Shown here in pieces: positions 1,867-16,876 of a DNA stretch of 64,000 nt (the first letter of the stretch is position 1; each line of letters starts with the position of its first letter). The DNA is taken from positions 25,048 to 89,047 of IMG/VR virus record IMGVR_UViG_3300035670_000108; one strand, given 5' to 3'. The DNA is from a virus. Below the pieces are notes generated by a model. That model searched no databases, was not told where the DNA came from, and saw only the letters and a list, made by a program, of their open reading frames with translations. The translations under genes and the position numbers were made by a program.

Positions 1867-2307
1867 CTACTCCCCCGTGAAGGCTCGGCGCTGCAGCTCC
1901 TTCATCTTCGCCTTCTTCACCTTCTTGGCGCTGGCCTTCATCCACGGGTTGCGGCCGATGGTGCGCTCCGCCTCGATCTTCACCTGGCGACGCTCGGCCG
2001 CGGCGAAGTCCTCGATGCCCTCCTTGCCGATGACGTGGGTGGCATCCTCTGCCTTGTCCACGACCTCGTAGCCCTTGTCGGTCAGCGCGGTGGCGACGCG
2101 GCGGACAAGGGCGGGGTCCATCCCGTCCCCGATGACGGCGATCTTGACCTTGTCGGGTTGAGCTTCTTGCATGGCTATCTCCTGCTGCTGGAACATGTTT
2201 CGCAGCGCCGGTATCAGTGCTGCGGTTAGGGTGGTCTTGCCGTGGTCGATATGGCCGATGGTGCCGACGTTGACTCGTGGACGGCGGGGTTTGATGGCGT
2301 CAAGCAT
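1867..2307 (-). CDS. Protein with EF-Tu-like P-loop N-terminus
   Basis: 146 residues. Residues 8-30 read almost exactly like the start of bacterial elongation factor Tu ([20 protein letters not shown]), including the GHxDHGKT G1/P-loop. The switch regions, the DxxG and NKxD motifs and domains 2-3 of EF-Tu are absent. The rest is a different sequence ([20 protein letters not shown]) with a lysine-rich end. GTP hydrolysis is therefore unproven. Its ATG overlaps the upstream stop (ATGA). It may mimic or interact with host EF-Tu, which is inference only. Confidence 0.75.
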
Positions 2308-2930
2308 CAGCCCTTTCCCCCGTACAGGTAGTGGTCGAATGGGGTGACGATGTCGGTTCCGGGCTCCTGCTCGGCGATCTGCTGCTGGATCTCGAGCCAC
2401 TCCTTGCGCCAGGCCAGGATGTCGCCGCGTAGCACCTGCACCGTGTCGGTGGGCGGCTTGGGCCAGCCCTCGCGGCGGTTACTCAGTATGCGGTGGAGGT
2501 GGGGCGCCAGGTGGTTCCAGGCCTGCTCCACCAGGGGCAGAGTGTCGCGCGGGCGGTCGCCCTGGCTGAAGGCTTTCACCACCTGGTGCACGGCGTCACC
2601 CAGGCGGTCAGGTTGCTTGGCCAGATAGGCAACAAGGACGGGGTCATTCATCACCAGAGGTTGCGGCTCCTCACCCTTGCCGACCACCCGCAGGATCACG
2701 TCGCCGTGGCACGGCTTCGGCCAGCAGCAGCACACGATGTCCTTGTGCGCCAGCTCGCGGCGCATCATGGTCACCAGGTTTGGGTTGAGGAACAGCCAGT
2801 GCTCGTAGAGCTTGATGCAGCCCTCGCGGCCAAAGGTGCGCTCGTCGAAGGGGTTGCCCCAGGGACCCGGGCGCATGATGTTCACCGCGTCGGCCGGGAT
2901 CTCGCGGTGGCGGACGTTAAACAGTTCCAT
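2307..2930 (-). CDS. DUF4326-like protein
   Basis: 207 residues. The N-terminal ~85 residues carry the DUF4326 pattern: [20 protein letters not shown] near the start, then [17 protein letters not shown]. This domain is common in phages and its biochemical role is unknown; the conserved Cys/His could bind a metal. The C-terminal ~120 residues are helical and unrecognised. It overlaps the upstream gene by 14 nt and the downstream gene by ATGA. Confidence 0.8.
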
Positions 2931-3282
2931 CGTAGGCCACCGGCGATTGCTGGATCAGGCCGATCAGCTTGGTGATCTCCTGGCGGGCGAAGTAGTGAGG
3001 GTCCGGGAAACCGGCCGGGCAGATCTGCTTGATCAGCGCCTCGGCCGCCACGCGGAGGTCGTGGGCATGCAGCTGAGCCTTGAGGTCGGCCATGCTCACC
3101 TGCTTGTTCAGCCAGGCCGCGTCGGTGTTTCGCAGGTGCTGCAGCGGGCCGCTGATTTCCGCGCTGACCAGGCCATAACGGCCCGTCGCCCAGGCACTGC
3201 GCAGATCGGCCTTCCAGAATCGACCGTGGTTCTTCTCCCACGCCACCAGGGCTCGAACAATCTCAATAGGTAGTCGTTTCAT
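2917..3282 (-). CDS. Hypothetical phage protein, 121 aa
   Basis: First gene of a leftward cluster, starting 19 nt downstream of the 29-bp palindrome at 3302-3330. GGAG lies just before the ATG. The product is soluble and helical, with several Trp residues near the N-terminus (MKRLPIEIVRALVAWEKNHG). No known domain seen. Confidence 0.78.
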   Translation of the reverse strand: MKRLPIEIVRALVAWEKNHGRFWKADLRSAWATGRYGLVSAEISGPLQHLRNTDAAWLNKQVSMADLKAQLHAHDLRVAAEALIKQICPAGFPDPHYFARQEITKLIGLIQQSPVAYDGTV

Positions 3283-3301
3283 TTGCTCCTCCAGGAAGCA
3301 A

Positions 3302-3330
3302 CAGACCCTGCAAAGACTTTGCAGGGTCTG
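3302..3330. repeat. Palindrome copy 1 (29 bp, longest)
   Basis: Perfect 29-bp palindrome with 14-bp arms; its core CTGCAAAGACTTTGCAG (3308-3324) is the family motif. It sits between two leftward gene clusters, 19 nt upstream of the start at 3282. Confidence 0.9.
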
Positions 3331-3351
3331 AAGGTTAGACGAATTGGCGGA

Positions 3352-3657
3352 TCAGCGGAAGTCGTACAGTTGCTTGCGCAGTTGCGCTCGCTCCACGTCC
3401 CAGTCCTGGCCGGTGCAATAGGTCATCACCTGGCCCCTCACGTAGAGGCGCTCGATAGCCCAGCGGCCAGGCCACTCCTTCAGGGGGCGGGCGATGTTCT
3501 CGGCGATGACCTGCTTCTTGTCCTGGCGGCAGCGTTTGGTGACCATGTCCAGCAAGGATCGCTGCTGTTTGTCCGTCAACACCTGCTGCGCGTTGGGGTT
3601 TTCTCGTGCGTCTCGCATCATCATCTTCAGCGAGATCTCCTCGTGGGCTGTGCTCAC
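3352..3657 (-). CDS. Hypothetical phage protein, 101 aa
   Basis: Basic, helical, charged protein (MSTAHEEISLKMMMRDAREN at the start) with no membrane segment. Last gene of its cluster; its stop lies 21 nt before the palindrome at 3302. Start overlaps the upstream stop by ATGA. Function not recognised. Confidence 0.75.
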   Translation of the reverse strand: MSTAHEEISLKMMMRDARENPNAQQVLTDKQQRSLLDMVTKRCRQDKKQVIAENIARPLKEWPGRWAIERLYVRGQVMTYCTGQDWDVERAQLRKQLYDFR

Positions 3658-3938
3658 AGTGCGTACTCCCGTTTGATGGCCAGATAGCGGGTGGTGTCGA
3701 CCTTCTGCACCACCCAGTCAGTGGCCTCGGCCTCGTTGTCGCCGCCGGCCGGGTAGACCCCAACGACGGTGGGGATCGAGAAGCTCTGCCCCTTGGCGGT
3801 GACGATGCGGTCGCCGGGCTCGACCTTCATGTCCTCGGGCGCCAGGTAGAAGTAGGAGCGGTTGCCACCGCCACTGAAGATCACGCCGACAACGACGTAG
3901 GGGGTCTTGGGTTTCGGGTCGAGCAAGGGGTGGCTCAT
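3654..3938 (-). CDS. Hypothetical beta-rich protein, 94 aa
   Basis: Small beta-rich protein; PEDMKVEPGDRIVTAKGQSF suggests a short SH3- or OB-like barrel, but no family is recognised. The stop overlaps the next start (ATGA at 3654-3657) and the start overlaps the preceding stop. Confidence 0.75.
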   Translation of the reverse strand: MSHPLLDPKPKTPYVVVGVIFSGGGNRSYFYLAPEDMKVEPGDRIVTAKGQSFSIPTVVGVYPAGGDNEAEATDWVVQKVDTTRYLAIKREYAL

Positions 3939-4438
3939 GGCAGTTGTTCCTCGGGCATTTCCAGGCGGTAGAAGCCCAGCACCTGGGTGCCGTTGACCTC
4001 CTGGACGGTGAAGGTGATCTCGGGGCCGGCGACGTTGTCCAGCTGCTCCATCAGCGAGCTGACGAAGGCGTCGACCTGCGGCGGCTGCAGCTCGTGGTAG
4101 CGGTCGAACAGGCCGTTGTAGCTGGCCGGCGCCACCTGGGCGATCAGGTCGAGCAGGAACTCTGCCGTCTCCTCGTCGGTGTAGCTGGCCGGGCTGACAA
4201 GGTGGGGGCCGCCATCGGCTACCGTCTCGGCCGGCGCGCTGTGCACCTCGAAGACCACCAGGCAGTTGTCACCCTTGAGGCTCGCCAGCGGGTTGCTCTT
4301 GAGGGTGGCTATCGCCTCGTCGACGTCGCGGTTGGTCGGCGCCAGCAGTCGCCGGGCCTCTTCCTCGCTGATGCCGACGTGCTGGGGGCCGACGCGGCGG
4401 GAGAAGTGGCCGGGAATGGTGCGGCGTTGGTAACTCAT
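3935..4438 (-). CDS. Hypothetical phage protein, 167 aa
   Basis: Starts MSYQRRTIPGHFSRRVGPQH at ATG 4438, which overlaps the upstream stop (ATGA); the longer in-frame reading is rejected because it runs through the preceding gene. No recognised domain; predicted soluble and acidic in the middle. Confidence 0.75.
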   Translation of the reverse strand: MSYQRRTIPGHFSRRVGPQHVGISEEEARRLLAPTNRDVDEAIATLKSNPLASLKGDNCLVVFEVHSAPAETVADGGPHLVSPASYTDEETAEFLLDLIAQVAPASYNGLFDRYHELQPPQVDAFVSSLMEQLDNVAGPEITFTVQEVNGTQVLGFYRLEMPEEQLP

Positions 4439-4689
4439 GGGGTGGCTCCTTTGCGTGGTTGACAGTCGGTGTGGTAGGTCGGCTCGGTCTTCCACACCTT
4501 AGAACGAGCGATCAGCTCGTCGAGAATCTGGCGTCGGGTTTTGGCGTTTCCAGCGGCGTCAGTGTTGAACGGGTTGAGGGTCTGCGACTCGGTGAAAGTG
4601 CGCGAGGCCTTCTTGTTGCAGACGGGGCAGATTCCCGACTTCTTGATCGGGTACTTGACCACCTCGAAGTTCACGCGGGTTGTACGCAT
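4435..4689 (-). CDS. Small zinc-finger-like protein, 84 aa
   Basis: Contains CPVCNKKASRTFTES and a distal HTDC, giving a plausible Cys2-HisCys metal site. The rest is basic and helical. Many such CxxC proteins lie in this arm and could bind nucleic acid, but that is inference. Overlaps both neighbours (19 nt upstream, 4 nt downstream). Confidence 0.75.
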   Translation of the reverse strand: MRTTRVNFEVVKYPIKKSGICPVCNKKASRTFTESQTLNPFNTDAAGNAKTRRQILDELIARSKVWKTEPTYHTDCQPRKGATP

Positions 4690-5117
4690 GGCTCACCCTC
4701 CATGCCGCCGGCATAGATCTTCACGTCGTCGCCTAAGTACAGGTCAATCGGTAGGAAGTCGGTGTCGTAGCCGCAGGCCTTAGTCAGGCGCAGCCCGACA
4801 TCGCCCAGGCCACGATCCCAGAACCCGCAGCCGTGACCGTTACGGGTCAGCCAGAGGTCATGACCGGCGTAATCGTAGGCCGTACCCTGGCTAGGGTCAT
4901 AGCTGATCTGGTCGGTGTACAGCTCCAGGTCATCGCGGTAGCGCTCGAAGAACTTGGTGGCCTCGGCCTTCAGGCGCTCTTCCTGGTGCTCCCCCCACTC
5001 GAAGTTGTCCGAGTCGAGGTCAACGTCTTGGCCGGTCTGCGGGTGGGTGCTGGTGCTGCTCCACAGGGCGGCCACCAGGTAGCCGCGCAGGAACTCTTCA
5101 AGGAGTGGGTTACTCAT
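4671..5117 (-). CDS. Hypothetical acidic protein, 148 aa
   Basis: Acidic soluble protein with aromatic-rich patches (SYDPSQGTAYDYAGHDLWLT, then NGHGCGFWDRG). This combination recurs in phage early proteins of unknown role. Start overlaps the upstream gene by 8 nt; its last 19 nt overlap the next gene. Confidence 0.8.
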   Translation of the reverse strand: MSNPLLEEFLRGYLVAALWSSTSTHPQTGQDVDLDSDNFEWGEHQEERLKAEATKFFERYRDDLELYTDQISYDPSQGTAYDYAGHDLWLTRNGHGCGFWDRGLGDVGLRLTKACGYDTDFLPIDLYLGDDVKIYAGGMEGEPCVQPA

Positions 5118-5367
5118 GGGGGAATACCTCGTCGATAATGTGGCGGCAGCGGCGGCACTCTCGCGCGCCAGCCGCCTCGGCGGTGCGGAAGGAGCCGCCG
5201 GTGGAGTACGGCTTGCTGCCGCACATGGCCCCGCCGTCGTGGATAGCGTGGGCGACGCCGGTCTGGTCGTGCCAGCGGTTCAGCGAGGGCGCCCACCACA
5301 CGCCGGTGGCGTCGACAGCCCGGCGGATCTCGGCGAGCCGCCCCTTGCCTGGCTCACAGAGGTTCAT
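5110..5367 (-). CDS. Small Cys-containing protein, 85 aa
   Basis: Ends with ARECRRCRHIIDEVFPHE, a CxxC plus His that may bind zinc with Cys4 or Cys49. No family recognised. Overlaps the upstream gene by 14 nt and the downstream gene by 8 nt, typical of this compressed cluster. Confidence 0.75.
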   Translation of the reverse strand: MNLCEPGKGRLAEIRRAVDATGVWWAPSLNRWHDQTGVAHAIHDGGAMCGSKPYSTGGSFRTAEAAGARECRRCRHIIDEVFPHE

Positions 5368-5974
5368 CGCCTTCCGCCTCCTCGACGAAGGGCACGATGT
5401 CCACGGTGATGTCGAAGGTCTCGTCGATCTGGCCGTCCAGCGGGCCGCCGAACTGATCCAGCTTGAAGCGGCCGGCGTTCAGCACCAGGCACTTGCGCTT
5501 CGGCTCGATGCCGCGATCCCACAGATCGAGCATGTCCTTCACCGCGTTGTGCACCTGCTCGGACAGCTGGCCCATCGGGTCGTCACCGATGTCCGCGTCG
5601 TCCAGCAGGGCACCGGGTTCCAGCATGGCCAGGTTCAACTCTTCGTCAACCTCCAGGGCCGATCCCTCGATGGCGAAACACATGGCGCCGTTGAAGGTGC
5701 AGCCTGGGAAGGCGTTGATCTCTATGCGGATCTGGTTGAGCACCTTCGGCGCCGGCAGCTCGATGCCGTCGTCGTCCCAGGCGGCCGGATGGATGTCCCC
5801 CGGTACCACGCCGATGACCTTGATCTCGGTCTCGCGCATCGACCAGTCAGCGGCGGCCTGGGCACGGCCCTCGACGCCGGCAAGGGTGGCATCCTCCTGC
5901 TCAACCTCGACGGTGCAGATGTGGGTGGTGCCGGCGTCATTGGTTTGGCGGCAGAAAGTGGTGAACTTGAACAT
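5354..5974 (-). CDS. Hypothetical acidic protein, 206 aa
   Basis: ATG at 5974 (MFKFTTFCRQTNDAG) is preferred over the in-frame ATG at 5992 because GAGGAGG lies 5 nt before it. Acidic, beta-rich, without recognised motifs. It starts 14 nt after the stop of a 39-codon gene. Confidence 0.78.
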   Translation of the reverse strand: MFKFTTFCRQTNDAGTTHICTVEVEQEDATLAGVEGRAQAAADWSMRETEIKVIGVVPGDIHPAAWDDDGIELPAPKVLNQIRIEINAFPGCTFNGAMCFAIEGSALEVDEELNLAMLEPGALLDDADIGDDPMGQLSEQVHNAVKDMLDLWDRGIEPKRKCLVLNAGRFKLDQFGGPLDGQIDETFDITVDIVPFVEEAEGDEPL

Positions 5975-5988
5975 GGCGACCTCCTCGG

Positions 5989-6108
5989 TCAAAACCAGAT
6001 ATAGCGGTAGAAGGTGTAGGTGCCGAGCAGGCCTCCCGGTTTGAAGACCTGATACCCAACGTGCACCCCTTGTCGGATGATCATTCGCAGACGGTAGCGT
6101 TGCTTCAC
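5989..6108 (-). CDS. Very small basic protein, 39 aa
   Basis: GTG start at 6108 with GGGAGG 6 nt upstream, overlapping the previous stop (GTGA). The product is basic and aromatic (MKQRYRLRMIIRQGVHVGYQ, ending FYRYIWF). Without it there would be an unusual 130-nt gap in an otherwise gapless cluster. Function unknown. Confidence 0.55.
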   Translation of the reverse strand: MKQRYRLRMIIRQGVHVGYQVFKPGGLLGTYTFYRYIWF

Positions 6109-6362
6109 AGGGAACCTCCCATTGCCTTGATCACCATCGGGGTGATGTCCTTGCGCGAGCCTTCCCAGAAGCGGAACGCCGGAGACCGGCCCACCTCGAA
6201 GTCGACGCGCATCATCAGCCGGCCGCGGCGGTTGGTCACGTAGGCCTGGCCATGCGGTTGCAGCAGATCCGGCTGGAATGTGGCGGCGTTGCGGATTGCC
6301 TCGCGCGCCGCCACCCGCACCTTGGCCAGGAAGGCCTCATTGAGGCTCGTTGGCGTGATCAT
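6105..6362 (-). CDS. Hypothetical phage protein, 85 aa
   Basis: ATG 6362 (MITPTSLNEAFLAKVR) with GAGGG about 8 nt upstream is preferred; an in-frame ATG at 6383 would lengthen the overlap with the preceding gene. Contains VTNRRGRLMMRVDFEVGR, a basic beta hairpin. No family recognised. Confidence 0.7.
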   Translation of the reverse strand: MITPTSLNEAFLAKVRVAAREAIRNAATFQPDLLQPHGQAYVTNRRGRLMMRVDFEVGRSPAFRFWEGSRKDITPMVIKAMGGSL

Positions 6363-6687
6363 GGGAGGTACCCTCGTAGCCAATGGCCAACAGGTTCTGG
6401 ATGGCGGCGTCGATCGCCGTGGCCTTGGCCTGCGCCTCGCCCATGATCTCGTCGCGGGCCTTCTCCATGGCCTTGACTTCCAGGCTGATCATGTCGATCT
6501 CGCCCTCGGGCAGCGGCACTTCCACTTCGTGCTCGCAGATGAAGATCTCGCCGGAGGTGTTGGCCTTCAGCTGCCGGGGGTCCCAGCTTTGCATCGAGAA
6601 GGTGTAAGGCAGTTGCCCTGGTTCGACATAACACCGGCGGCGAGCGACGACATAGAGCTTCTGTTTCAGAGCGGAGGGGAGTTTCAT
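6337..6687 (-). CDS. Hypothetical protein with C-terminal helix, 116 aa
   Basis: N-terminal half beta-like, C-terminal half a long Ala/Glu/Lys helix (MEKARDEIMGEAQAKATAID). First gene downstream of palindrome copy 2, whose edge is only 8 nt before the ATG. Before the SGNH cassette arrived it was probably adjacent to the gene that now ends at 8467. Confidence 0.75.
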   Translation of the reverse strand: MKLPSALKQKLYVVARRRCYVEPGQLPYTFSMQSWDPRQLKANTSGEIFICEHEVEVPLPEGEIDMISLEVKAMEKARDEIMGEAQAKATAIDAAIQNLLAIGYEGTSHDHANEPQ

Positions 6688-6693
6688 GGAGTC

Positions 6694-6717
6694 ACCTACA
6701 AAGGCTTTGCAGCCTGG
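6694..6717. repeat. Left direct repeat of SGNH cassette (palindrome copy 2)
   Basis: 24 bp identical to 8465-8488 and in the same orientation. It contains the variant palindrome CTACAAAGGCTTTGCAG (6696-6712); the GG centre is found only in these two copies, which bracket the two-gene cassette. Confidence 0.9.
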
Positions 6718-6732
6718 CTATTGATGGCGATG

Positions 6733-6762
6733 GAAAAGATGCGGGAGGCCTAAGCCTCCCGC
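6733..6762 (-). terminator. Leftward intrinsic terminator after SGNH gene
   Basis: Stem of 9 bp (GCGGGAGGC/GCCTCCCGC, 6741-6762) with a TTAG loop, followed on the leftward strand by ATCTTTTCC. It lies 18 nt past the SGNH gene stop and would insulate the cassette from downstream genes. Confidence 0.7.
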
Positions 6763-6780
6763 AAATGGTGTTGCTGTCGA

Positions 6781-8112
6781 TCAGGTTGGGATCTGGCCGG
6801 GCACCGGCCTGATCTCCAACCCGGTGATGCGGAAAGTCCCGGTGGGCGGCCCCAGCGTCGACAGATAGCACGCTGCCCTGAGCCGCAGGTCGGTCGCGTC
6901 GGCCGGCATGACGAATCGAGGGGAGCGCGCTATACCCGCATCGGCCACCTGCGGCAGCAGGCTGACGTTGGTGTACTTGTCACCGTCCCAGAGGGAAGTG
7001 GTTCCGCCCGGGGTAATCAGCTGGAAGCCGAACTGCAGCGAAGCGATGTTGTTCACGTCGGCGTCGTGCTCGTACTGGGCCACGACTTCGTAGACTAGGC
7101 CTGGCGTCACCTTGTTTTGCAGGCCGATCTGGCGCATCAGGTCGATCGCCGCCGTCTGCGTCGCGGCCACGCCGCCGACCACGATTTGCTGCCAGGTCTT
7201 GCCATCCTTGGTGACCTTGGAATAGGTTCGGGTCACGCCAGTGGTGCCGGTCGAGTTGCTGCCGCTGTAGCCGGTGGCTAGCTGGCCGGAGCCGCCGCTG
7301 CCGACGGTGCCTGTGGTGCCTGCCGTCAGCGCGTTGCTGCTGGCCGACCCCTGCGGGTTGGTAGTCGCGTTCCACGGATTCTCCACCGTTGCGATGACCG
7401 GGATGGCGGTGAACAGGTTCGCTACCACCTCAGCGGCGGTGATGCCCCAGTAATAGGCGCCAAGGGTCAGCGGGTGCAGGCCGTCGCTGGTGTACCCGTC
7501 CTTGATGTCGTTGACCGTCCCATCCTTGAGCAGGTGGGTGTGGTTGTCCACGACGTAGCAACCGACCCCCGGCAGTTCGGCGAGCATCCGGCTGCGGATG
7601 GTCTGGGCGGTTACCAAATTGGCGCCGGCCAGTCGGGTAGCTGGGTAGATGTCGTTGCCGCGTGGCGCCGGGACGATGAAAATCAGCACCATGCGCGCGG
7701 TCTTCGCCGCGTCCCGCATGCGCTTCATCGACTCCAGCGTCTGGTCGGCAGTCACCCCGGCGTTCGGGTCGTTGGTCCCCACGGCGATGATGCCAAGGCC
7801 GGCGCCGGTGGCTATCATGGCCGTCATCCTCGCCTCGGCCATAAGCGTCGTATCGCCGCCCACGCCGAAGTTCCTATTCGGCGAGAAGTACAGCCGCTGC
7901 CCAGTTCGGCGGTTCATCGAGGTGATGAAGCCGTTGTTCTGGAAGCCGCCCACCGTGGACGAGTTCTGCAGCACTATGCTGTCGCCCAGGATCGCCAGCA
8001 GGTTGTTGCGCGGAGCGCCGTCCCAGGCTGGCGCTCCGCGGGGCGGTGGAGCGTCTTGCAGGTTGCTCGATAGGCTCTGGAACACAGCCCTTGCCAGCTT
8101 GTTCGCCAGCAT
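6781..8112 (-). CDS. SGNH/GDSL-family hydrolase
   Basis: 443 residues. All SGNH blocks are visible: LGDSIVLQNSS (block I nucleophile Ser, about residue 44), FGVGGDTTLM (block II Gly), GTNDPNAG (block III Asn) and DGLHPLT (block V Asp/His). The family includes esterases and deacetylases; in phages it is usually a virion protein acting on O-acetylated surface sugars. A Gly/Ser/Thr-rich linker (residues ~255-300) leads to a beta-rich C-terminal domain of about 145 residues, possibly sugar-binding. Its position inside the early arm, with a structural-looking partner and its own terminator, is unusual. Confidence 0.85.
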   Translation of the reverse strand: MLANKLARAVFQSLSSNLQDAPPPRGAPAWDGAPRNNLLAILGDSIVLQNSSTVGGFQNNGFITSMNRRTGQRLYFSPNRNFGVGGDTTLMAEARMTAMIATGAGLGIIAVGTNDPNAGVTADQTLESMKRMRDAAKTARMVLIFIVPAPRGNDIYPATRLAGANLVTAQTIRSRMLAELPGVGCYVVDNHTHLLKDGTVNDIKDGYTSDGLHPLTLGAYYWGITAAEVVANLFTAIPVIATVENPWNATTNPQGSASSNALTAGTTGTVGSGGSGQLATGYSGSNSTGTTGVTRTYSKVTKDGKTWQQIVVGGVAATQTAAIDLMRQIGLQNKVTPGLVYEVVAQYEHDADVNNIASLQFGFQLITPGGTTSLWDGDKYTNVSLLPQVADAGIARSPRFVMPADATDLRLRAACYLSTLGPPTGTFRITGLEIRPVPGQIPT

Positions 8113-8115
8113 GGC

Positions 8116-8403
8116 TCAGGTCTCCGAAAATACGCCGATGGCCGCGCCGCCGGGCCGGGCCGCTGACCGCATCACACGGTAGGTGCCAGGCCCGAAGATC
8201 TGAACCTGGCGCTGCGCGTCGTTCAGCAGCGCCACGAAGTTATCGGCGCCGGGGGTGTCAATGACCACCTTGATCTGCTGGCTGACCTGGACGTTGGCGC
8301 TGGCGGCGAAGATCCCTACTACGGCTGAGGCCCCCGCGGCGAGCACGACGTCAGTGGACGTCGCAGCCGCCGTTCCTTCGGCCAGAATGGTTGACTGAGG
8401 CAT
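8116..8403 (-). CDS. Small virion-like beta protein, 95 aa
   Basis: Ala/Val-rich beta protein (EGTAAATSTDVVLAAGASAV) ending FGPGTYRVMRSAARPG. It resembles small phage structural proteins encoded beside tail or fibre genes, not early regulators. It is 3 nt upstream of the SGNH gene, so the two form one transcription unit. Start follows GGGAGC. Likely a virion partner of the hydrolase (inference). Confidence 0.65.
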   Translation of the reverse strand: MPQSTILAEGTAAATSTDVVLAAGASAVVGIFAASANVQVSQQIKVVIDTPGADNFVALLNDAQRQVQIFGPGTYRVMRSAARPGGAAIGVFSET

Positions 8404-8464
8404 GGTTAGCTCCCTGCTGGATGAGGCGTGGAAAGTGGCATCAAGACTACACCTGGTCGAAGTG

Positions 8465-8488
8465 ACCTACAAAGGCTTTGCAGCCTGG
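8465..8488. repeat. Right direct repeat of SGNH cassette (palindrome copy 3)
   Basis: Identical to 6694-6717. Variant palindrome at 8467-8483. This copy also encodes the last codons (QAAKPL, stop) of the gene ending at 8467. Confidence 0.9.
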
Positions 8489-9084
8489 AAGAAGTCGTTA
8501 ACGAACTGGCGCGGCACGATGGCGACGTAGCGATGGCCGAGGATCTGCTGGTACTTGACCTGGATCAGGGCGTGGTCGTCGCGCCAGCTGATGTCGAGGT
8601 AGTAATGGTTGGACGGGTTGACCCCTGGCTGGGCGCTGTAAATCATCGTGGCCATCACGTCGATCAGCGCCTGGCTGGGGCGGACGTGGTTGTACAGGTC
8701 GAAGCCGCAGCCTACCGGCAGGCTCACCCACAACATGCCCGGAGGTGTCTCGCCCGCCGCCTTGCCCGTAGAGCGCTCGGTGAACAGCTCAGCCAGGCTC
8801 TCGCGGATCTGAATCGGCATCTTGCGGCGCACCGGTACCCAGGCCAGGGCCACCTGGTTGTCCGGCCAATCCGGGTCGAGATCCTCGAGCATGGCGCAGT
8901 TCGAGCAGATGAACTCGGCAGCGTCAGGTGCCGCCAGGTTCGGGGCGTAGTCGCGGTACCAGCCTACTGCCTGGCCCGCCTCGACGCGCACCTTGGCGTC
9001 GCAGACCAGGCAACACAGGGCCTGGCCCAGGTACTGGCCCCGCATGATGGGGCGCAGCAGTCTAGTGGAGATGGGCTTTAGCAT
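8467..9084 (-). CDS. Zinc-binding hypothetical protein, 205 aa
   Basis: Two CxxC pairs (CCLVCDAKVRV near residue 24 and FICSNCAMLEDLDPDWPDNQ near residue 60) suggest a zinc ribbon in the N-terminal third. The remainder is unrecognised. Its last residues FQAAKPL are encoded by the palindrome repeat at 8465-8488. Start overlaps the upstream gene by 23 nt. Confidence 0.78.
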   Translation of the reverse strand: MLKPISTRLLRPIMRGQYLGQALCCLVCDAKVRVEAGQAVGWYRDYAPNLAAPDAAEFICSNCAMLEDLDPDWPDNQVALAWVPVRRKMPIQIRESLAELFTERSTGKAAGETPPGMLWVSLPVGCGFDLYNHVRPSQALIDVMATMIYSAQPGVNPSNHYYLDISWRDDHALIQVKYQQILGHRYVAIVPRQFVNDFFQAAKPL

Positions 9085-9505
9085 CTTCGTTCACCTCGGT
9101 GTAATGGGCTTCTGGCTGCGGGTCGATGTTGATGGCCATGTGCAGGCCGGTGGGGCGCTGGTAGAACGGCTGGCCATTGCGCGGGTCGAGGACCGTCACC
9201 TGGTCTTGCGACACGTCCATGCGCACCAGCGCGGCGGTGTCCTCGGCAGTCCACACGCGGGCCTTGCCCTCGACGGTCAAGGAGAGGCTGTTGACGCCGT
9301 AGATGATCGGCGTGCACTGCACGGTGCGCCTCTCCAGGGTGGCGCCGGCCGCCAGCTGCAGCTCGTCGGCGGCAGCGCGCAGGATCGCCACGGGGTCGGT
9401 ATGGTTGCCGCTGACGTGGTCATTGAGCGCCACCCGCGCCTTGCTGCGCAGGCCGTCGGCCATCTCCAGCAGGATGTTCTGCAGCTCACGTTCTCGCTTG
9501 CTCAT
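9062..9505 (-). CDS. Hypothetical phage protein, 147 aa
   Basis: Helical N-terminal half (MSKRERELQNILLEMADGLR) and beta-rich C-terminal half. No known domain. ATG is preceded by GAGGCAGACC. Overlaps the next gene by 23 nt. Confidence 0.75.
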   Translation of the reverse strand: MSKRERELQNILLEMADGLRSKARVALNDHVSGNHTDPVAILRAAADELQLAAGATLERRTVQCTPIIYGVNSLSLTVEGKARVWTAEDTAALVRMDVSQDQVTVLDPRNGQPFYQRPTGLHMAINIDPQPEAHYTEVNEDAKAHLH

Positions 9506-9517
9506 GGTCTGCCTCGG

Positions 9518-9943
9518 TCACTTCTTGAAGCGTGAATGGGGGTCGAGATTCTCTTGCCAGTCGTCATCGAGATCGGCACCGCGTAGGCGCATCACGACGC
9601 CGGACAGCGTAGGGAAGTCTCCCGTGGCGCCTCCCACCCCTGTATTGACCAAGTGGCAGTTGTGCAGCTGGCACTCCCCGCCACCGCTGCTCATTTCGAT
9701 GATCAGACTGTCGATCTTGGCTTCCTCGACGATCGGCCGGTTCAGGTAGCGCAAGGCGAGCCGCACCTGCTGGCGCCGCTGCTTGCTGTTGCCGCGCAGG
9801 CAGAGGCTGGTCACCCGCTTTCCCGCGGCATCGAGGATGTAGGTAGTCCAGCGCGAGTGCTGGACGGTGAACGGCTGTTTCCCAACCGAACGCAGGCCGT
9901 CCCAGTAGCGCCGGTAGTGGGGGCCTGGCTGATAGCGCTTCAT
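9518..9943 (-). CDS. Hypothetical basic protein, 141 aa
   Basis: Basic N-terminus (MKRYQPGPHYRRYWDGLRSV), unrecognised. ATG overlaps the upstream stop (ATGA at 9940-9943). No membrane segment. Two Cys close together (SGGGECQLHNCHL) could bind metal. Confidence 0.75.
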   Translation of the reverse strand: MKRYQPGPHYRRYWDGLRSVGKQPFTVQHSRWTTYILDAAGKRVTSLCLRGNSKQRRQQVRLALRYLNRPIVEEAKIDSLIIEMSSGGGECQLHNCHLVNTGVGGATGDFPTLSGVVMRLRGADLDDDWQENLDPHSRFKK

Positions 9944-10119
9944 GGCTGCACTACCTCGTGATACTCGATCACACGGATATGCTCGTGGGTGTCGTACAGC
10001 TTCAAGCGGGCTGCCTCGAAGTCGACCGCGTCCACCTCCTTGGTGAACTGGATGCAGATGCCAATGGCATTATTTTCTCGACCGTAGAAGGTGATCGAGA
10101 AGGTCTTCTCGGTGCTCAT
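9940..10119 (-). CDS. Hypothetical small protein, 59 aa
   Basis: ATG 10119 (MSTEKTFSITFYGRENNAIG) is preferred over an upstream in-frame ATG because GGAGAGA lies just before it; palindrome copy 4 starts 12 nt upstream. Compact alpha/beta protein without recognised motif. First gene of its cluster. Confidence 0.7.
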   Translation of the reverse strand: MSTEKTFSITFYGRENNAIGICIQFTKEVDAVDFEAARLKLYDTHEHIRVIEYHEVVQP

Positions 10120-10131
10120 GATTCTCTCCAG

Positions 10132-10148
10132 CTGCAAAGACTTTGCAG
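10132..10148. repeat. Palindrome copy 4
   Basis: CTGCAAAGACTTTGCAG, perfect, 12 nt upstream of the start at 10119. Confidence 0.9.
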
Positions 10149-10149
10149 A

Positions 10150-10449
10150 TCAGAATGGGTAGTCGCCGGGCACGCCCGGCAGGTCTTCCACGGGCGGCAG
10201 CGGCCCCAGGCACTTCACCCCCTTGCTGGTGCTGCCCATGCGATGGGTGTCCAGGCCGCTAGGCCAGACCCACGCGCCGCAGTTGCACAGCTTGTCGTTC
10301 CAGGGCTTCTTCGCAGCCCAGCGGTCGGGCTTGGCCGTCTTCCCGCAGAACGGACAAGGGTGGTCGTTCAGGGGCACTGCCTTGAACCGGCGGCGGCAGC
10401 CGTCGCTGGTGCAGCGCATGTGCACCTTGGTGTACCGCCGCCGGGCCAT
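10150..10449 (-). CDS. Zinc-finger-rich small protein, 99 aa
   Basis: Three Cys pairs: RCTSDGCRRRF, PCPFCGKTAKPD and LCNCGAWVWPS, giving at least one and perhaps two zinc ribbons. Strongly basic N-terminus (MARRRYTKVHMRC). A nucleic-acid role is likely but not shown. Start overlaps the upstream stop by 1 nt; stop is 1 nt from palindrome copy 4. Confidence 0.78.
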   Translation of the reverse strand: MARRRYTKVHMRCTSDGCRRRFKAVPLNDHPCPFCGKTAKPDRWAAKKPWNDKLCNCGAWVWPSGLDTHRMGSTSKGVKCLGPLPPVEDLPGVPGDYPF

Positions 10450-10889
10450 TACCAGACTCTCTCTGGCGGTGTTTTCACCGCCTTGGTCTCGACCAGGTCG
10501 CCCCAGCAGCCAACCGTCATGCGGCGGCCGGTGAAGATCAGGGTGGTGGCGTAGGTGTCACCGGCGTTCAGGTAGCGCACCGAGCGACCGCTGCGCCGGT
10601 GCTCCCCCAGGTACTCGACGCCGTGGAAGCCGGCGAGGTTGTTCAGCAGCTGGCGCTTGACCTGCAGCAGGTACGGATCTCGCCCGGCGCGACAGGTCGG
10701 CGCCACCTGATCGTAGGCCGTCTGGTAGGCCTCCGGGTGGCCGGCGCGGTCCAGGATGTGCTTGAGGGTGTCCTCGTCCTTCGCGCGCCAGATGTCACGA
10801 ACCAACTGCGGTTCGATGTCCAGACGGATGTTGCGGTGGGCGAGGGTTTCGACGGAAGGGGCGGACCAGGCCGCAGGATCACGCGCCAT
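10449..10889 (-). CDS. Hypothetical phage protein, 146 aa
   Basis: Unrecognised soluble protein. The C-terminal half is beta-rich (YATTLIFTGRRMTVGCWGDL). Its start overlaps the upstream gene by 11 nt; an SD-like GGAGATG precedes the ATG. Confidence 0.75.
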   Translation of the reverse strand: MARDPAAWSAPSVETLAHRNIRLDIEPQLVRDIWRAKDEDTLKHILDRAGHPEAYQTAYDQVAPTCRAGRDPYLLQVKRQLLNNLAGFHGVEYLGEHRRSGRSVRYLNAGDTYATTLIFTGRRMTVGCWGDLVETKAVKTPPERVW

Positions 10890-11427
10890 CGGTCATCTCC
10901 TTCGGGAAGGTCTCGGGGGTGATGCCGATCAGGCGGCAGGCCATGGTGTAGTGGCCGTGCTCGGTGCGCCAGCGCTCCAGCTCGTCTTCCTCGGCGGTAA
11001 TGTCCTGCTGGATGTCGGCGCCCCAGTCTTCCAGCTTGTCGGCCACCAGCACCAGGCAGGCCTTCATGGCCTCCAGTTCCTGCAGGTTGGCGTACAGCTC
11101 CTTCAGCGGGCTTTCGCGTACCGCCTCCAGCTCGGCAAACTCGGCGTCCAGCTCCTCGCGTACCCATTCAGTCAGACGCTGCTCGACCGCGGTGGACTCG
11201 TCATCGTCGCGGTCGATCTTCTCCTTCAGCCAGGCGAGGCGGTCTTCCAGAGGGACTTCGATGGTGCTGCACTCGCCGCCACAGCGGTTGCAGTAGGCCG
11301 CGTCCATGACGCCGGCCAGTTCGTAGGCCTGCAGCGCTGGGTTCCAGGCGGCGTTGGCGTCATGGGTCACATCAGCACTGCGGCAGGTGCTGCAGATCAC
11401 CACAGTGCGGGGTTTTGGCGTAGACAT
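10879..11427 (-). CDS. Zinc ribbon plus coiled-coil protein, 182 aa
   Basis: N-terminal zinc ribbon (VVICSTCRSADV, then AAYCNRCGGECS) followed by about 120 residues of acidic, heptad-like helix (LEDRLAWLKEKIDRDDDEST, continuing to about residue 165). The architecture suggests a dimeric nucleic-acid or protein-binding factor. AGGAGG precedes the ATG closely. Confidence 0.78.
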   Translation of the reverse strand: MSTPKPRTVVICSTCRSADVTHDANAAWNPALQAYELAGVMDAAYCNRCGGECSTIEVPLEDRLAWLKEKIDRDDDESTAVEQRLTEWVREELDAEFAELEAVRESPLKELYANLQELEAMKACLVLVADKLEDWGADIQQDITAEEDELERWRTEHGHYTMACRLIGITPETFPKEMTDGA

Positions 11428-11436
11428 AGGGCCTCC

Positions 11437-11829
11437 TCAAAGGCATAGGTGGTACTGCTCCGGTTCGTCCGGATGGGCGAATAACTCGAGGTTTTCGTAG
11501 GGGTGGCCAGGCCACCACCGGTTGCTCTTGCTCAGGTTGGGGCCGGCGCCGATCACCCGCAGGTTCCACGGCACATGCAGGCCGCAGACCAGATCCGAAC
11601 GGATCGGGACAATGTGATCGACGTGGACGTCCTCCCCCGCTGCCCTGCGGCGCTTCTGCTCGGCGTACACCTTGGCGAAGCCGGGGTGCTCACGGCACCA
11701 CCAGGGCCACGCCTTGTACAGCTGCCGGTAGTAGCGGATCGAGCGCTTGTAGTTCGGGTTGACCTCCGGATCGTCGGGGTCTTGCCGCGCCAGCCAGATC
11801 GGTTTGCCGTAGGACAAGGGGGTGGCCAT
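11437..11829 (-). CDS. HNH endonuclease
   Basis: 130 residues. The HNH core is visible: VHVDHIVPIRSDLVCGLHVP (paired Asp-His) then PWNLRVIG and NLSKSNRW (Asn and metal-side residues). Such small HNH proteins are DNA nickases or homing enzymes, and some act in packaging. This one is in the early arm, far from the terminase, so a homing or host-DNA role is as likely. ATG 11829 shares one base with the upstream stop. Confidence 0.85.
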   Translation of the reverse strand: MATPLSYGKPIWLARQDPDDPEVNPNYKRSIRYYRQLYKAWPWWCREHPGFAKVYAEQKRRRAAGEDVHVDHIVPIRSDLVCGLHVPWNLRVIGAGPNLSKSNRWWPGHPYENLELFAHPDEPEQYHLCL

Positions 11830-12218
11830 TACTTGCTGCACTCGGCTATCAGGTAGTCGAGGAGGCGCAGGCGGGCGGCGCCGTACTTCCCCGCCCAGCG
11901 AGGGTCGAACCCGCCCTCTTCCTTGTCGAGGTCAAAGGCTGCCTCTGCTGACAGCGTCTGGTGGGGGACCGGGTAGCTGGGATTGCCGGAGTATTCCGGC
12001 CAGTTCTGCGCCAGGCACTCCACCAGGTCGTAGGCGTCGATGCTGATCCCGACCAGCTCGTCGACGTCGGTCAAGGCGAAGAGGGCGCCGCAGATCCCTA
12101 CACCCTCCAAGACATTTTGCTCGTCCTCCCCTGTGGCCAGGTACTGCTCGGCCAACTGCTTCAGCTGCTGCAGCCCCGGGACAAACTTGCGCAGGATCTT
12201 CTTCCTCGGGCGGTTCAC
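11829..12218 (-). CDS. Hypothetical phage protein, 129 aa
   Basis: Soluble acidic protein with a basic N-terminus (MNRPRKKILRKFVPG). No domain recognised. Start overlaps the upstream gene by ATGA; stop shares a base with the HNH start. Confidence 0.75.
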   Translation of the reverse strand: MNRPRKKILRKFVPGLQQLKQLAEQYLATGEDEQNVLEGVGICGALFALTDVDELVGISIDAYDLVECLAQNWPEYSGNPSYPVPHQTLSAEAAFDLDKEEGGFDPRWAGKYGAARLRLLDYLIAECSK

Positions 12219-12412
12219 TTCACACCTCCCTGCTGGCGCAGGTTGCGCTGGCGGCGACGCTCGCGCTTGTCCTTGGCCGCCTGGATCTTCTCGTCGTCAG
12301 CCGCGGTGCGAGCACGGCGGGCTTCGGTCTGGTGCTTGGTGCGGATCGGCGGAACCCCGTGGCCCGTCGCTATGGCCAGAGCCAGAGCGATGGCTGAGGA
12401 CAACTTGAACAT
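12215..12412 (-). CDS. Small exported or membrane-anchored basic protein
   Basis: 65 residues: a short hydrophobic N-terminus (SSAIALALAIATGHG) then a very basic, Arg/Lys/Gln-rich helix. It could be a signal peptide or short anchor. First gene of its cluster, with AGGAGG inside a TTGCC..GGCAA inverted repeat and palindrome copy 5 upstream. Confidence 0.7.
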   Translation of the reverse strand: MFKLSSAIALALAIATGHGVPPIRTKHQTEARRARTAADDEKIQAAKDKRERRRQRNLRQQGGVK

Positions 12413-12415
12413 GAT

Positions 12416-12434
12416 TTGCCTCCTATAATGGCAA
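12416..12434 (-). promoter_or_regulatory. RBS-containing inverted repeat TTGCC..GGCAA
   Basis: On the leftward strand: TTGCCATTATAGGAGGCAA. The right arm overlaps the Shine-Dalgarno AGGAGG of the gene at 12412, so pairing could hide or present the ribosome site. Confidence 0.6.
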
Positions 12435-12440
12435 TGGAAC

Positions 12441-12457
12441 CTGCAAAGTCTTTGCAG
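12441..12457. repeat. Palindrome copy 5
   Basis: CTGCAAAGTCTTTGCAG, 28 nt upstream of the start at 12412. Confidence 0.9.
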
Positions 12458-12484
12458 ATCAAAGAGAGTAGCCTATTGGCTAGA

Positions 12485-13798
12485 TTACTCTATTTCACCC
12501 GGAGAGGTAGCCAGCCAGGCGTCAAACACCTGGCGGAATTGTTTCGCCCGGGCCAGCAAACCGGGGCGCGGAGTCTCCTCCTTGATCTCCTCCAGCAGCC
12601 GTTCAGCCAGCAAGCGGATGGCCAGCTGGGGCAGGTCGATATTCTCGTCGTCCTCGTCAAGGAAGACGCGGCACAGCGAGCTGAACTCGTCTACCAGGCC
12701 CTGGCGGGTGGCCACCGTCCACTTCTCGCTGGTGGTGTAGGGGAAGGCATTGTCCTTGCCGCATAGCAGCAGCTCGCTGGCCGGCAGCCAGATCTCGCGG
12801 ATCGCCTGCCAGTCCTCCTGATACACGTGGATGCTGCTGTCCACCTCGCACTCCCAGTACGGGAACACATGGATCGGGCTGCTGCCGTCGTGATGGCTCA
12901 GTACGCAGTACAGACTGGCGTAGCCGTTGGCCTCGACGGTGTAGGCGCCGCGGCTGATGTTGAACTCGCCGTTCACGCGCAGCTTGTCGGCCAGCTCCTT
13001 GGCGTCGTACTTGCACTCGGCGTAGGCGTCCTGGCGGCGCCAGCCGAACTTGCTTACCTCTACCCGCAGGCCGTCCGGCGCCGGCAGGCCCTGCTTGGCC
13101 AGCTCCTGCTTCATCTCGTCGAGCAGGTACTCCAGCTGCTCCTGATACTGCTCCCATTCGTCGTTGTCGCCGGCGTAGCCGTAGGCCTTGGCCGGCGTGT
13201 CAACGGCCTCCTCCCAGATGGGGCGCACGACCCGGTCGCACTGCTCGCAGCGGCAGTACGGCCCGCTCAAGTGGCTGAACTGCTCGGCAGCCTCGATTGC
13301 CTCCTCAGCCGTCTGCTCGCGGATCTCTTCGGTCGCGCCGCACTCCGGGCACTCTAACGTGCTCCACATTTCCAGCTCGCCGCCCAGGTCATCCGGGTCG
13401 TAGCTGAAGCCGCCGCGCTTCACCGCGACGACCTTGCCCTCTTGCATGTAGAACTGCTGGGCCAGGCGCTGGCGATCCAGCACGCCGTCCAGTGCCTGCA
13501 CATCGTAGCCGGAGGCTTTCACCATCTGCCGGGCCCAGAGCGGCGTGCCTCGCTGTCCGCCATGGTGGTGGTAGAGGCGGCGCAGGCGCGCCTTCATCTC
13601 GATCTGCTTGTGCTCACGACTACCGATGATCTGCTTGGCCAGACCCATCAGGGCGGTGTGCAGCAGAAGGGGCTTGGTGACCAGCGCGAAGTCGGTGAGC
13701 TGTTTCAGTTCGCAGTGGTGGAAGTTGAGCAGGGCCGGCAGGTAGTAGTGCTGGGATTCCGGGTCGAAGGAATACAGCGGAGCGTGGAGTTTGGACAT
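12485..13798 (-). CDS. Large hypothetical protein with zinc ribbon, 437 aa
   Basis: Largest leftward protein apart from the SGNH hydrolase. A zinc ribbon is likely in the middle (LECPECGATEEI near residue 145, CRCEQCDRVV near residue 178), followed by an acidic helical region and a Trp-rich beta section. No enzyme family recognised. ATG 13798 is used; a longer in-frame reading has low-complexity basic sequence typical of a shadow frame and lacks a ribosome site. GGAGG precedes the ATG. Confidence 0.8.
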   Translation of the reverse strand: MSKLHAPLYSFDPESQHYYLPALLNFHHCELKQLTDFALVTKPLLLHTALMGLAKQIIGSREHKQIEMKARLRRLYHHHGGQRGTPLWARQMVKASGYDVQALDGVLDRQRLAQQFYMQEGKVVAVKRGGFSYDPDDLGGELEMWSTLECPECGATEEIREQTAEEAIEAAEQFSHLSGPYCRCEQCDRVVRPIWEEAVDTPAKAYGYAGDNDEWEQYQEQLEYLLDEMKQELAKQGLPAPDGLRVEVSKFGWRRQDAYAECKYDAKELADKLRVNGEFNISRGAYTVEANGYASLYCVLSHHDGSSPIHVFPYWECEVDSSIHVYQEDWQAIREIWLPASELLLCGKDNAFPYTTSEKWTVATRQGLVDEFSSLCRVFLDEDDENIDLPQLAIRLLAERLLEEIKEETPRPGLLARAKQFRQVFDAWLATSPGEIE

Positions 13799-13842
13799 AG
13801 CGGGCCTCCTTGAAGGCGTTTCACTTGCGGGGCAAGGGGTGG

Positions 13843-14151
13843 TCAGTAGCTCAGTTGGGCGATGTCGCGGACGTTGCCGGCGGTCGGGGTGGAGCCCTTG
13901 AGCATGGCGTGAAGGAACGAGTGGGCCTTCGGCGTGAAGCGGATCAAGCCCAGCTGCAGCTGCATGACGTCGTCCTCGCTCATGAAGGCGCAACCGCGGC
14001 AGCGACCGTCGCGGACATACTCCACGAACATGGGGCGGGAGGGGTTCGGTGCGTTGACATGCGGCAGCGCGCTGACGTAGCCGTCGTAGGCCAGGTGGAC
14101 GGTGCAGTGGCGCTTGCCGGGCAGGCCGCGCCGTACCAGGGCTTTTTTCAC
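13843..14151 (-). CDS. Hypothetical protein with CxxC, 102 aa
   Basis: Basic start (MKKALVRRGLPGKRHC) and a central RDGRCRGCAFMSEDD, a possible metal site with Cys16 and nearby His. Function unknown. The 61 nt upstream hold only a possible 11-codon leader peptide (MINFREQEDFS) ending at this gene's ATG, which I do not annotate. Confidence 0.7.
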   Translation of the reverse strand: MKKALVRRGLPGKRHCTVHLAYDGYVSALPHVNAPNPSRPMFVEYVRDGRCRGCAFMSEDDVMQLQLGLIRFTPKAHSFLHAMLKGSTPTAGNVRDIAQLSY

Positions 14152-14212
14152 GAGAAGTCCTCCTGCTCGCGGAAGTTGATCATTGCCTATTCCTCTTCTT
14201 CATCCGGGCCAG

Positions 14213-14878
14213 CTAGATCGGTGATGCGTAGAGCTTGGTGCCGGGCGGTAGCGGCTGCGTCAGTTCGACGTGCAGCAGGCTGATTCCGCCGCCAGTCTTT
14301 AGCTGAACCTCACCCACCGCCTCCTGCCCCTTCACCGCGGCCAGCTCGGCGCGCAGGGCGTCGCGTTGTTTCTGCAGGTCAATGGCGTTCTGCCCGTAAG
14401 CGTCGCGCGCCGACTTCGCATCGGCCAGCTCGGCGCGCAGCTTGCCGTTGAGCTGCGCCAGTCCGGCGTTTGCCTGCTCAAGCATTAAGGCGTTGGAGCA
14501 CCACCTCTCCACCTCTGCCGCCATAGCTGCGGTGATGCGCTGTACGTCGGCTAGCTCGGCGCGCTCTTCCAGGGTGGGGCGAGCGCCGAACTTGCAAAGT
14601 TCTTTGCAGCCTCCCTGGTGGATGATCTCGCCCTGGAACTGCCACTTGGGGATGACCAGGACGTTCTTGCCTTCGTGGTAGAAGCCTTCCTGACCAACGA
14701 TGGCCTGGTACTCGTAGCCCTCACGCTCGCGCACCTGATGGCCGTCGAAGATGCCCGCCCCGAAGTTGATGATGATGGTGTCCCCGAGCAGGAAGATGTC
14801 GGCACGCTGGGCGTAGCCGTAGTCCAGCACCAGCACTCGGGCGCCGGTCTTGACGCAGTTTCCGGATTTAACAGGCAT
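14213..14878 (-). CDS. Possible two-part fusion protein, 221 aa
   Basis: Residues 1-88 are a beta-rich domain. Residues ~100-185 form a long coiled coil (AERTx-poor, Ala/Glu/Leu heptads such as LAQLNGKLRAELADAKSARD), and the end is LPPGTKLYASPI, a tail I recall from other Pseudomonas phage coiled-coil proteins. A palindrome copy lies inside the gene (14591-14609) exactly at the domain junction and is translated as GGCKELCKFGA. This suggests joining of two genes at a repeat (inference). Confidence 0.75.
   Translation of the reverse strand: MPVKSGNCVKTGARVLVLDYGYAQRADIFLLGDTIIINFGAGIFDGHQVREREGYEYQAIVGQEGFYHEGKNVLVIPKWQFQGEIIHQGGCKELCKFGARPTLEERAELADVQRITAAMAAEVERWCSNALMLEQANAGLAQLNGKLRAELADAKSARDAYGQNAIDLQKQRDALRAELAAVKGQEAVGEVQLKTGGGISLLHVELTQPLPPGTKLYASPI
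14591..14609. repeat. Palindrome copy 6, intragenic
   Basis: Variant with a 2-nt centre: TGCAAAG-TT-CTTTGCA. It is in frame inside the 221-aa gene at its domain junction. Confidence 0.8.
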
Positions 14879-14880
14879 GG

Positions 14881-15099
14881 CTATTCGTCCACATTGGTGT
14901 TGGTAGGCTCCTCCACCAGCACGTAGCCGGTGAGGGTGTACTGGTCGTTCCAGCTGGCGCCGCAGTCGGAACAGGTGATCTCCTGCCAGGCGATGGCGGA
15001 TTCTGCCGTGAAAGGACCGCCGCTGATTTCGTTGCTATTGCAGCAGGGGCAGAGCTGCCCGGCGCAGGCCACATAGGCCTCGTTCGTTGAATGGGCCAT
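14881..15099 (-). CDS. Zinc-ribbon protein, 72 aa
   Basis: Cys pairs CPCCNSNEI and CSDCGASWNDQYTLTGY make a classic two-knuckle zinc ribbon. The GASWNDQYTLTGY ending is familiar from small phage proteins of unknown role. 2 nt from the next gene and 1 nt from the previous one. Confidence 0.8.
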   Translation of the reverse strand: MAHSTNEAYVACAGQLCPCCNSNEISGGPFTAESAIAWQEITCSDCGASWNDQYTLTGYVLVEEPTNTNVDE

Positions 15100-15100
15100 C

Positions 15101-15631
15101 TCAGTCTCCCAGCGGCTCGATGTCGATCACCGCCATCCAGTTCATGTCGATGCCGAACTCGTTGTCTTGGCGCCCCTGTTCAAGGGTGGCCAGCATGCGG
15201 TCGGCGAGGGCGTCGAGGTTGACCCGGTCCAGCTTGTCGGCGATGGAGTTGGGGATGGCCAGCTCGACGTGGAGGGCGTAGCGGGTCTCGGTGGGGTTGT
15301 GCAGCGGCTCCATCCGTTCGTCCAGCTCGCCGACGGTGGCCAGGGCCAGGATCTCGCCGTCCATGCCCTGCAGCTGGTAGATCGTCCCGGTGTGCACGCC
15401 GAACTTGTACCCCTCCGGCTGCACGCCGTGCTTAACGGCGCCGACCAGCATCAGCGTGCCGACACCGGGGATGAAGCGCTGCAGGATGTAGACGGCGCGG
15501 GCCATGTCGTGAAAGGCGGTGAAGCCGTAGACCTGCGGATCTGCCAGGTTCCAGCTGGCACCGCAGTCACGCCATGGGCGTTCGATCTCGAATCCGTCGT
15601 GGACGAACTTCAGTAGATTGGCGTTGTGCAT
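15101..15631 (-). CDS. Hypothetical phage protein, 176 aa
   Basis: Soluble alpha/beta protein; no domain recognised. ATG at 15631 is preceded by AGGAGG inside a TTGCC..GGCAA inverted repeat, with palindrome copy 7 further upstream: the full module. First gene of a long leftward cluster that runs to 12485. Confidence 0.78.
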   Translation of the reverse strand: MHNANLLKFVHDGFEIERPWRDCGASWNLADPQVYGFTAFHDMARAVYILQRFIPGVGTLMLVGAVKHGVQPEGYKFGVHTGTIYQLQGMDGEILALATVGELDERMEPLHNPTETRYALHVELAIPNSIADKLDRVNLDALADRMLATLEQGRQDNEFGIDMNWMAVIDIEPLGD

Positions 15632-15632
15632 A

Positions 15633-15651
15633 TTGCCTCCTATGCAGGCAA
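15633..15651 (-). promoter_or_regulatory. RBS-containing inverted repeat TTGCC..GGCAA
   Basis: Leftward strand TTGCCTGCATAGGAGGCAA; extends to ATTGCC/GGCAAT. Directly precedes the ATG at 15631. Confidence 0.6.
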
Positions 15652-15658
15652 TCGACAG

Positions 15659-15675
15659 CTACAAAGACTTTGCAG
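15659..15675. repeat. Palindrome copy 7
   Basis: CTACAAAGACTTTGCAG (16 of 17 positions match the perfect form). It encodes the last residues (AAKSL, stop) of the gene ending at 15659 and lies 27 nt upstream of the start at 15631. Confidence 0.9.
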
Positions 15676-16069: not shown

Positions 16070-16070
16070 G

Positions 16071-16247
16071 TCAGGGCTCCTCTTGTTCGATCTGGTCGGC
16101 GACCCATTGCCAGTATCCCGACTGGATATTTCCTTCGGCGGCTTCCTGCCCCCACTCTCCACGGCTATATACCGGGTGCTCTCCCCAACTTGTCGCCGTG
16201 CCGTATTTGTCAGCTAGCTGCTCCGGTGTGAGGTCACGGTCGCTCAT
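16071..16247 (-). CDS. Hypothetical small protein, 58 aa
   Basis: MSDRDLTPEQLADKYGTATS at the start, Trp-rich, acidic end (QIEQEEP). ATG 16247 is close behind the upstream stop with GGAGGCC before it; an upstream in-frame ATG lacks support. Function unknown. Confidence 0.7.
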   Translation of the reverse strand: MSDRDLTPEQLADKYGTATSWGEHPVYSRGEWGQEAAEGNIQSGYWQWVADQIEQEEP

Positions 16248-16248
16248 G

Positions 16249-16854: not shown

Positions 16855-16857
16855 GAT

Positions 16858-16876
16858 TTGCCTCCTGTGAGGGCAG
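16858..16876 (-). promoter_or_regulatory. RBS-containing inverted repeat (imperfect)
   Basis: Leftward CTGCCCTCACAGGAGGCAA; one arm mismatch. Precedes the ATG at 16854. Confidence 0.45.

Follow-up and report, generated by a model that had tools for sequence, protein, structure and literature searches.

Results

Gene Content of the Locus

The window analyzed here is a 64,000-nucleotide stretch corresponding to positions 25048–89047 of an 89,047-bp virus record. Two copies of ACCTACAAAGGCTTTGCAGCCTGG, exact 24-bp direct repeats at 6694–6717 and 8465–8488, lie in its leftward early arm, and the first-pass annotation had described a cassette of two genes and a terminator between them. The identical repeats were recovered at these positions, and so were an SGNH gene, a 95-aa partner gene and a T-tailed hairpin, all on the minus strand.

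The larger gene (6781–8112) encodes an SGNH/GDSL esterase of 443 aa (phrog_6102, E = 1.2e-48; PF13472, E = 7e-13, above the cut-off), an assignment based on alignments, a structural model and PDB fold matches. The GDS serine block, the block II Gly, the block III Asn and the block V DxxH of the family are all present, with the catalytic motif residues S45, G86, N114, D210 and H213 conserved in the alignments. An N-terminal helix (residues 3–17) is followed by the SGNH domain (about 38–235) and a C-terminal beta domain (about 290–437); the mean pLDDT of this model is only 73, and residues 1–27 are poorly modeled. Its fold matches in the PDB are GDSL esterases, the top ones including entries for phage Moo19 Gp82 and B2 Gp48/49. 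Relatives of the protein occur at many different loci with swapped N-termini. It had been argued that virion-type genes are out of place in an early arm, an argument that carries little weight here: several phages carry members of the SGNH family of the 443-aa protein away from virion modules, and the PHROGs category of phrog_6102 is “moron, auxiliary metabolic gene and host takeover.”

The partner gene (8116–8403) encodes a small all-beta protein of 95 aa, as judged from its family match (phrog_34273, E = 6.3e-20), its neighbors in other genomes and a model (pLDDT 87) in the form of a small beta-sandwich. Fold searches with this model returned only generic beta-sandwich matches in the PDB and were uninformative in BFVD. 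Upstream of the partner, the cassette leader (8404–8464) carries an AGGGAG ribosome-binding sequence ahead of the partner ATG, and a search for sigma-70-type promoters found none on the minus strand of 8404–8464. Downstream of the SGNH gene, an intrinsic-terminator-like hairpin with a T-rich tail occupies 6740–6763 (folding z = -3.65). The base composition of the cassette resembles that of its surroundings and does not mark it as foreign; in atypicality of codon usage the partner ranks 6 of 89 and the SGNH gene ranks 19.

The cassette is flanked upstream by gene X (8467–9084, minus strand; 205 aa, without a known family), whose stop codon lies within repeat copy 2, and downstream by gene Y (6337–6687, minus strand; 116 aa, phrog_2479, function unknown), the start codon of which lies 11 nt away from the core palindrome in copy 1.

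The Partner and Esterase Genes Elsewhere

Relatives of the partner lie directly before an SGNH gene in L031, where a portal-like gene comes first (portal-partner-SGNH), and in L032/L034/L035/L036; in PSTNGR1 and L033 they directly follow one. In KLEP17-4 the relative precedes a fiber with a weak SASA-esterase match, and further relatives reside in Halomonas phages and prophages, within clusters of head-tail genes. Judged from these gene orders, partner and esterase recur together as a module in unrelated phages and at unrelated loci.

The proteins encoded beside the partner are alike over their first ~20 residues and differ in their bodies. When anchored at the N-terminus they scored -30, where random N-termini averaged -182 (sd 35), and P was 0.0014 against shuffles, in a test that was devised after the pattern had been seen and for which the start codon in L031 was picked to fit. 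Together, the partner and the shared N-terminus would serve to attach an exchangeable enzyme that is probably virion-borne. We also observed phrog_34273 beside esterases of different architectures (L031–L036, L017, and L019) whose N-termini are alike. The family is possibly a portable attachment module, one not described in the literature examined. Separately, one locus (L050:3716–6866) holds two tandem SGNH-type genes with a near-identical N-terminal start (KPxIRKRQVVLT), the first of which was confirmed as SGNH.

A Family of Palindromes in the Early Arm

Each repeat copy contains one member of a palindrome family, CTGCAAAG-N-CTTTGCAG, with 17 sites in the leftward early arm. Exact matches to CAAAGNCTTTG number 17 in the window, all of them within 3311–22724, and the whole 89,047-bp record holds the same 17. 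A search allowing one mismatch gave 19 matches where about 1.3 were expected, and the family as a whole is far beyond chance. Most sites lie just before minus-strand start codons, at a distance of 10–35 nt, and several have a common leader towards ...TAGGAGGCAAATCATG; flanks shared by other pairs of sites reach into the ribosome-binding leader, with 20–27 bp in common for several pairs. Two palindromes are in tandem at 22688–22724, 26 bp apart with 27 bp in common. The palindrome at 3311–3321 sits inside an extended palindrome of ~29 bp (CAGACCCTGCAAAGTCTTTGCAGGGTCTG; RNA folding z = -5.5).

In G002, one of three related contigs described below, the same half-site flanks a 2-nt center: CAAAG-NN-CTTTG occurs ten times, and all but one of these sites are in the early arm. 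One of the ten precedes a gene that corresponds to window positions 22814–23566 by position and sequence, as seen without a scored alignment. The presence of an equivalent early-arm array with a different center suggests that the palindrome family has a regulatory function or acts as a leader. The G002 array falls within L026 (G002 12001–24018), and at G002 17227 one palindrome lies inside a perfect terminator-like hairpin. Covariation supporting an RNA hairpin in the outer arms of the palindromes was not significant, so that both a hairpin reading and a protein-site reading are compatible with the data. An Rfam search returned nothing credible, and a single unrelated IMG/VR contig that matched the consensus palindrome was judged a chance match.

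The Repeat Pair and the Orphan Stop Codon

Copy 1 (core 6699–6709) and copy 2 (core 8470–8480) are identical over 24 bp and, with mismatches allowed, match at 28 of 30 bp (6688–6717 vs. 8459–8488). The third-best match to ACCTACAAAGGCTTTGCAGCCTGG in the window, at 17966, has 3 mismatches; no other site has fewer than 3, and shuffled sequences gave none. A G at the center (C on the minus strand) occurs only at 6699 and 8470 among the 17 palindromes, the other 15 having A or T, so that the first-pass view of a center unique to these two sites is borne out for the window and for the full record alike. The length of the identity (at least 24 bp) has no diagnostic value for this pair, because the sites at 16887 and 20074 are also identical over 24 bp and those at 22688 and 22714 over 27 bp, although nothing implies an insertion at those pairs. 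What distinguishes the 6699/8470 pair is the letters that are shared. If letters are sampled from the remaining 15 sites, an independent site has a probability of ~1e-6 per pair (136 pairs) of reproducing the 24-mer; the shared-rare-letter coincidence has log10 P = -6.06 for this pair and -4.1 to -4.6 for the next pairs, and an identical pair with a C/G center arose in none of 4000 simulated arrays. The two copies are therefore probably related by duplication.

The copies differ in what they do for the adjoining genes. Copy 1 holds the AGGTGA ribosome-binding sequence of the gene starting at 6687, and its TAG terminates no gene; copy 2 codes for the final residues AAKPL and the TAG stop of gene X, and in it AGGTGA is replaced by AGGTCA. 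On the minus strand the palindromes continue as CTTTG-CAG at 13 of the 17 sites and as CTTTG-TAG at four. At three of these four the TAG closes an extended open frame, of 203 codons in the case of gene X (8470), of 180 at 15662–15672, where it is the stop codon of the upstream ORF (AAKSL*), and of 161 at 17971–17981, with which it is in frame. The TAG at 6699 follows just 13 open codons and is the end of no gene. Since the TAG has nothing to stop at 6699 and is a stop codon at the other three sites, the sequence suggests that copy 6699 was derived, by duplication, from a site at the end of a gene, 8470 being one such site.

When the flanks are joined through a single copy, the result is gene X-TAG-GTGACTCC-ATG-gene Y, a tight and ordinary junction in which no gene is truncated; the 28/30-bp similarity takes in the AGGTGA ribosome-binding motif ahead of the gene Y ATG. 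The orphan TAG and this clean joined junction are the strongest support for an insertion, and they support it indirectly.

Search for Relatives and for an Empty Site

At the sensitivity used, genes X and Y had no relatives in named phages or in IMG/VR, collections that may omit records very near the window, and no empty site was seen. A megablast of 5000–10000 against phages gave no match, distant blastn of 2000–9999 gave only matches of ~60–100 bp among the matches listed, and alignment of the portal in GTDB genomes gave no relatives. Three IMG/VR contigs are related to the window through the terminase (69–71%) and other late genes; gene X, gene Y and the cassette are absent from all three, which are fragments, so this absence says little.

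A difference between G002 and its 98% identical relative G003 was considered as a parallel cassette and rejected: it is an IS200/IS605-like insertion present in G003 only, away from the palindromes, and it shows that gene gain in this related phage group is not confined to palindromes. The insertion (L027:413–2259) encodes a TnpA-like protein of 150 aa and a TnpB-like protein of 453 aa, both recognized by eye from their sequences, with no family search. In both G002 and G003, head-decoration or fiber-type genes lie in late orientation where the early and late regions meet (L026:1426–3057).

Discussion

Origin of the Cassette

With a little better than even confidence, we read the locus as the moron-like gain of a probably virion-borne esterase module between genes X and Y, in the course of which the element at their junction was duplicated; an insertion with duplication of the element is, taken by itself, fairly likely. 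Before the event we infer, one palindromic junction element of ~30 bp would have served both genes, supplying gene X with its final codons and stop and gene Y with its ribosome-binding site, and forming the palindrome. The two-gene module with its terminator would then have entered the X-Y junction and left one copy of the element on each side. Copy 8470 would still form the end of gene X and would have lost the ribosome-binding motif, and copy 6699 would still serve gene Y and would have kept a stop codon that ends nothing.

A scan of 55 early and adjacent proteins found no site-specific recombinase among the best 25 families listed for each of Pfam and PHROG, and the same 55 proteins include a DNA polymerase, a ligase, an SbcC-like subunit and an RdgC-like exonuclease. 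We therefore prefer general recombination or template switching over a dedicated recombinase as the presumed route. The module may have arrived by Campbell-type insertion of a cassette carrying one copy of the element at matching short homology, or by template switching during recombination-dependent replication.

The same features can be read in other ways. We regard as doubtful, if still a sizeable possibility, that gene Y and the cassette each have an independent regulatory site, the two being alike through shared function or gene conversion, with no insertion having taken place. The placement of most of the 17 sites ahead of minus-strand starts, the common leader and the ability of functional sites in the array to share 24 bp all agree with this reading, but it leaves the rare letters common to the 6699/8470 pair only and the orphan TAG at 6699 without a place, and copy 8470 lies 66 nt from the start of the cassette and has no leader of the usual kind. 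A mobile element that inserted the module with a target duplication of 24–30 bp and was then lost seems very improbable. Usual target duplications are shorter than this, the repeat coincides with an element of the palindrome family and there is no transposase gene between the copies, even though both ends carry direct repeats and an IS200/IS605-like insertion is known in the relative G003.

The first-pass annotation went further than insertion and proposed that the repeats make up a cassette-exchange system. On such a reading the palindromes would be recurrent exchange points at which early-arm genes are shuffled as palindrome-bounded cassettes, the 6699/8470 pair marking the latest exchange, and it is true that gene junctions host most palindromes, that several pairs of sites have 20–27 bp in common and that RdgC-like and SbcC-like recombination proteins are encoded in the genome. 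We nevertheless think it unlikely: the best family matches include no recombinase, a foreign-looking module is bracketed by one pair only, the flanks shared elsewhere run into the ribosome-binding leader as those of a functional leader would, and the G002 array has another center length, as expected for a regulatory element. A milder form, in which the palindromic leaders are control sites and also preferred points of gene gain and loss, each gene having its own palindrome and ribosome-binding leader and the esterase being the latest to arrive, also strikes us as improbable. An exchange system is conceivable but unsupported, with no recombinase among the families listed for the 55 scanned proteins, no second bracketed cassette, no empty site in the collections searched and, in the relatives, one gain through a transposon-like element away from the palindromes; the part of the earlier interpretation that we keep is an insertion duplicating the bracketing element, for which the orphan TAG, the clean junction and the recurrent module argue.

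Comparison with Known Systems

Our preferred reading, the gain of a module between genes X and Y, recalls phage morons in that an extra module with its own terminator lies between two genes of a compact arm. It differs from them in that a palindromic element occurring genome-wide has a copy on either side of the module and that no promoter of its own was recognized for the module.

Virion SGNH deacetylases are known from the Schitoviridae. They include Possum gp66 and G7C gp63.1, a separate adapter protein having been proposed for Possum (PMC9569702), and the tailspikes of Moo19 and B2, which are described as having esterase activity (PMC11654681). The protein described here likewise combines an SGNH domain with further beta domains, and the Moo19 and B2 entries are among its fold matches, whereas its length of 443 aa, its short helical N-terminus and the position of its genes in the early arm set it apart, and the partner matches no attachment protein of solved structure by sequence. 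Most likely the two genes would encode a deacetylase acting on surface polysaccharide, which the virion probably carries and for which the N-terminal helix and the partner would provide the attachment part; the enzyme activity, the substrate and the virion location are all inferred.

The palindromes invite comparison with the start-associated repeats (SAS/ESAS) of cluster K mycobacteriophages, which are confined to the non-structural half of the genome. These comprise a 13-bp sequence, GGGATAGGAGCCC, and, upstream of about half of them, 17-bp inverted repeats with a 4–13 bp spacer, the consensus of the inverted repeats varying between subclusters (PMC3203893). Similarly, all 17 sites described here lie in a non-structural arm (3311–22724) and most are upstream of start codons. 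Their sequence is different, however, and each forms a near-gapless palindrome of 17–21 bp with a 1-nt center (2 nt in G002); by sequence and geometry, therefore, they are SAS/ESAS-like in placement and not members of SAS/ESAS. The SPBRE operators of SPbeta, a 15-bp motif at prophage promoters bound by the repressor MrpR (PMC10516654), are similarly short elements at many intergenic places of one phage and provide a precedent for a repressor-bound array; the binding protein is known there, whereas none is known for the palindromes described here.

Significance

The locus offers a sequence-level case of how a probable host-range gene would enter a phage genome, with a short regulatory repeat that had marked a gene junction coming to border the insert at either end. 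Should repeats of this type commonly act as landing points, there would be a concrete substrate for the mosaicism of phages at gene boundaries. In addition, partner and esterase are paired at loci that are unrelated, which suggests that they are a portable unit of attachment and enzyme, one worth naming.
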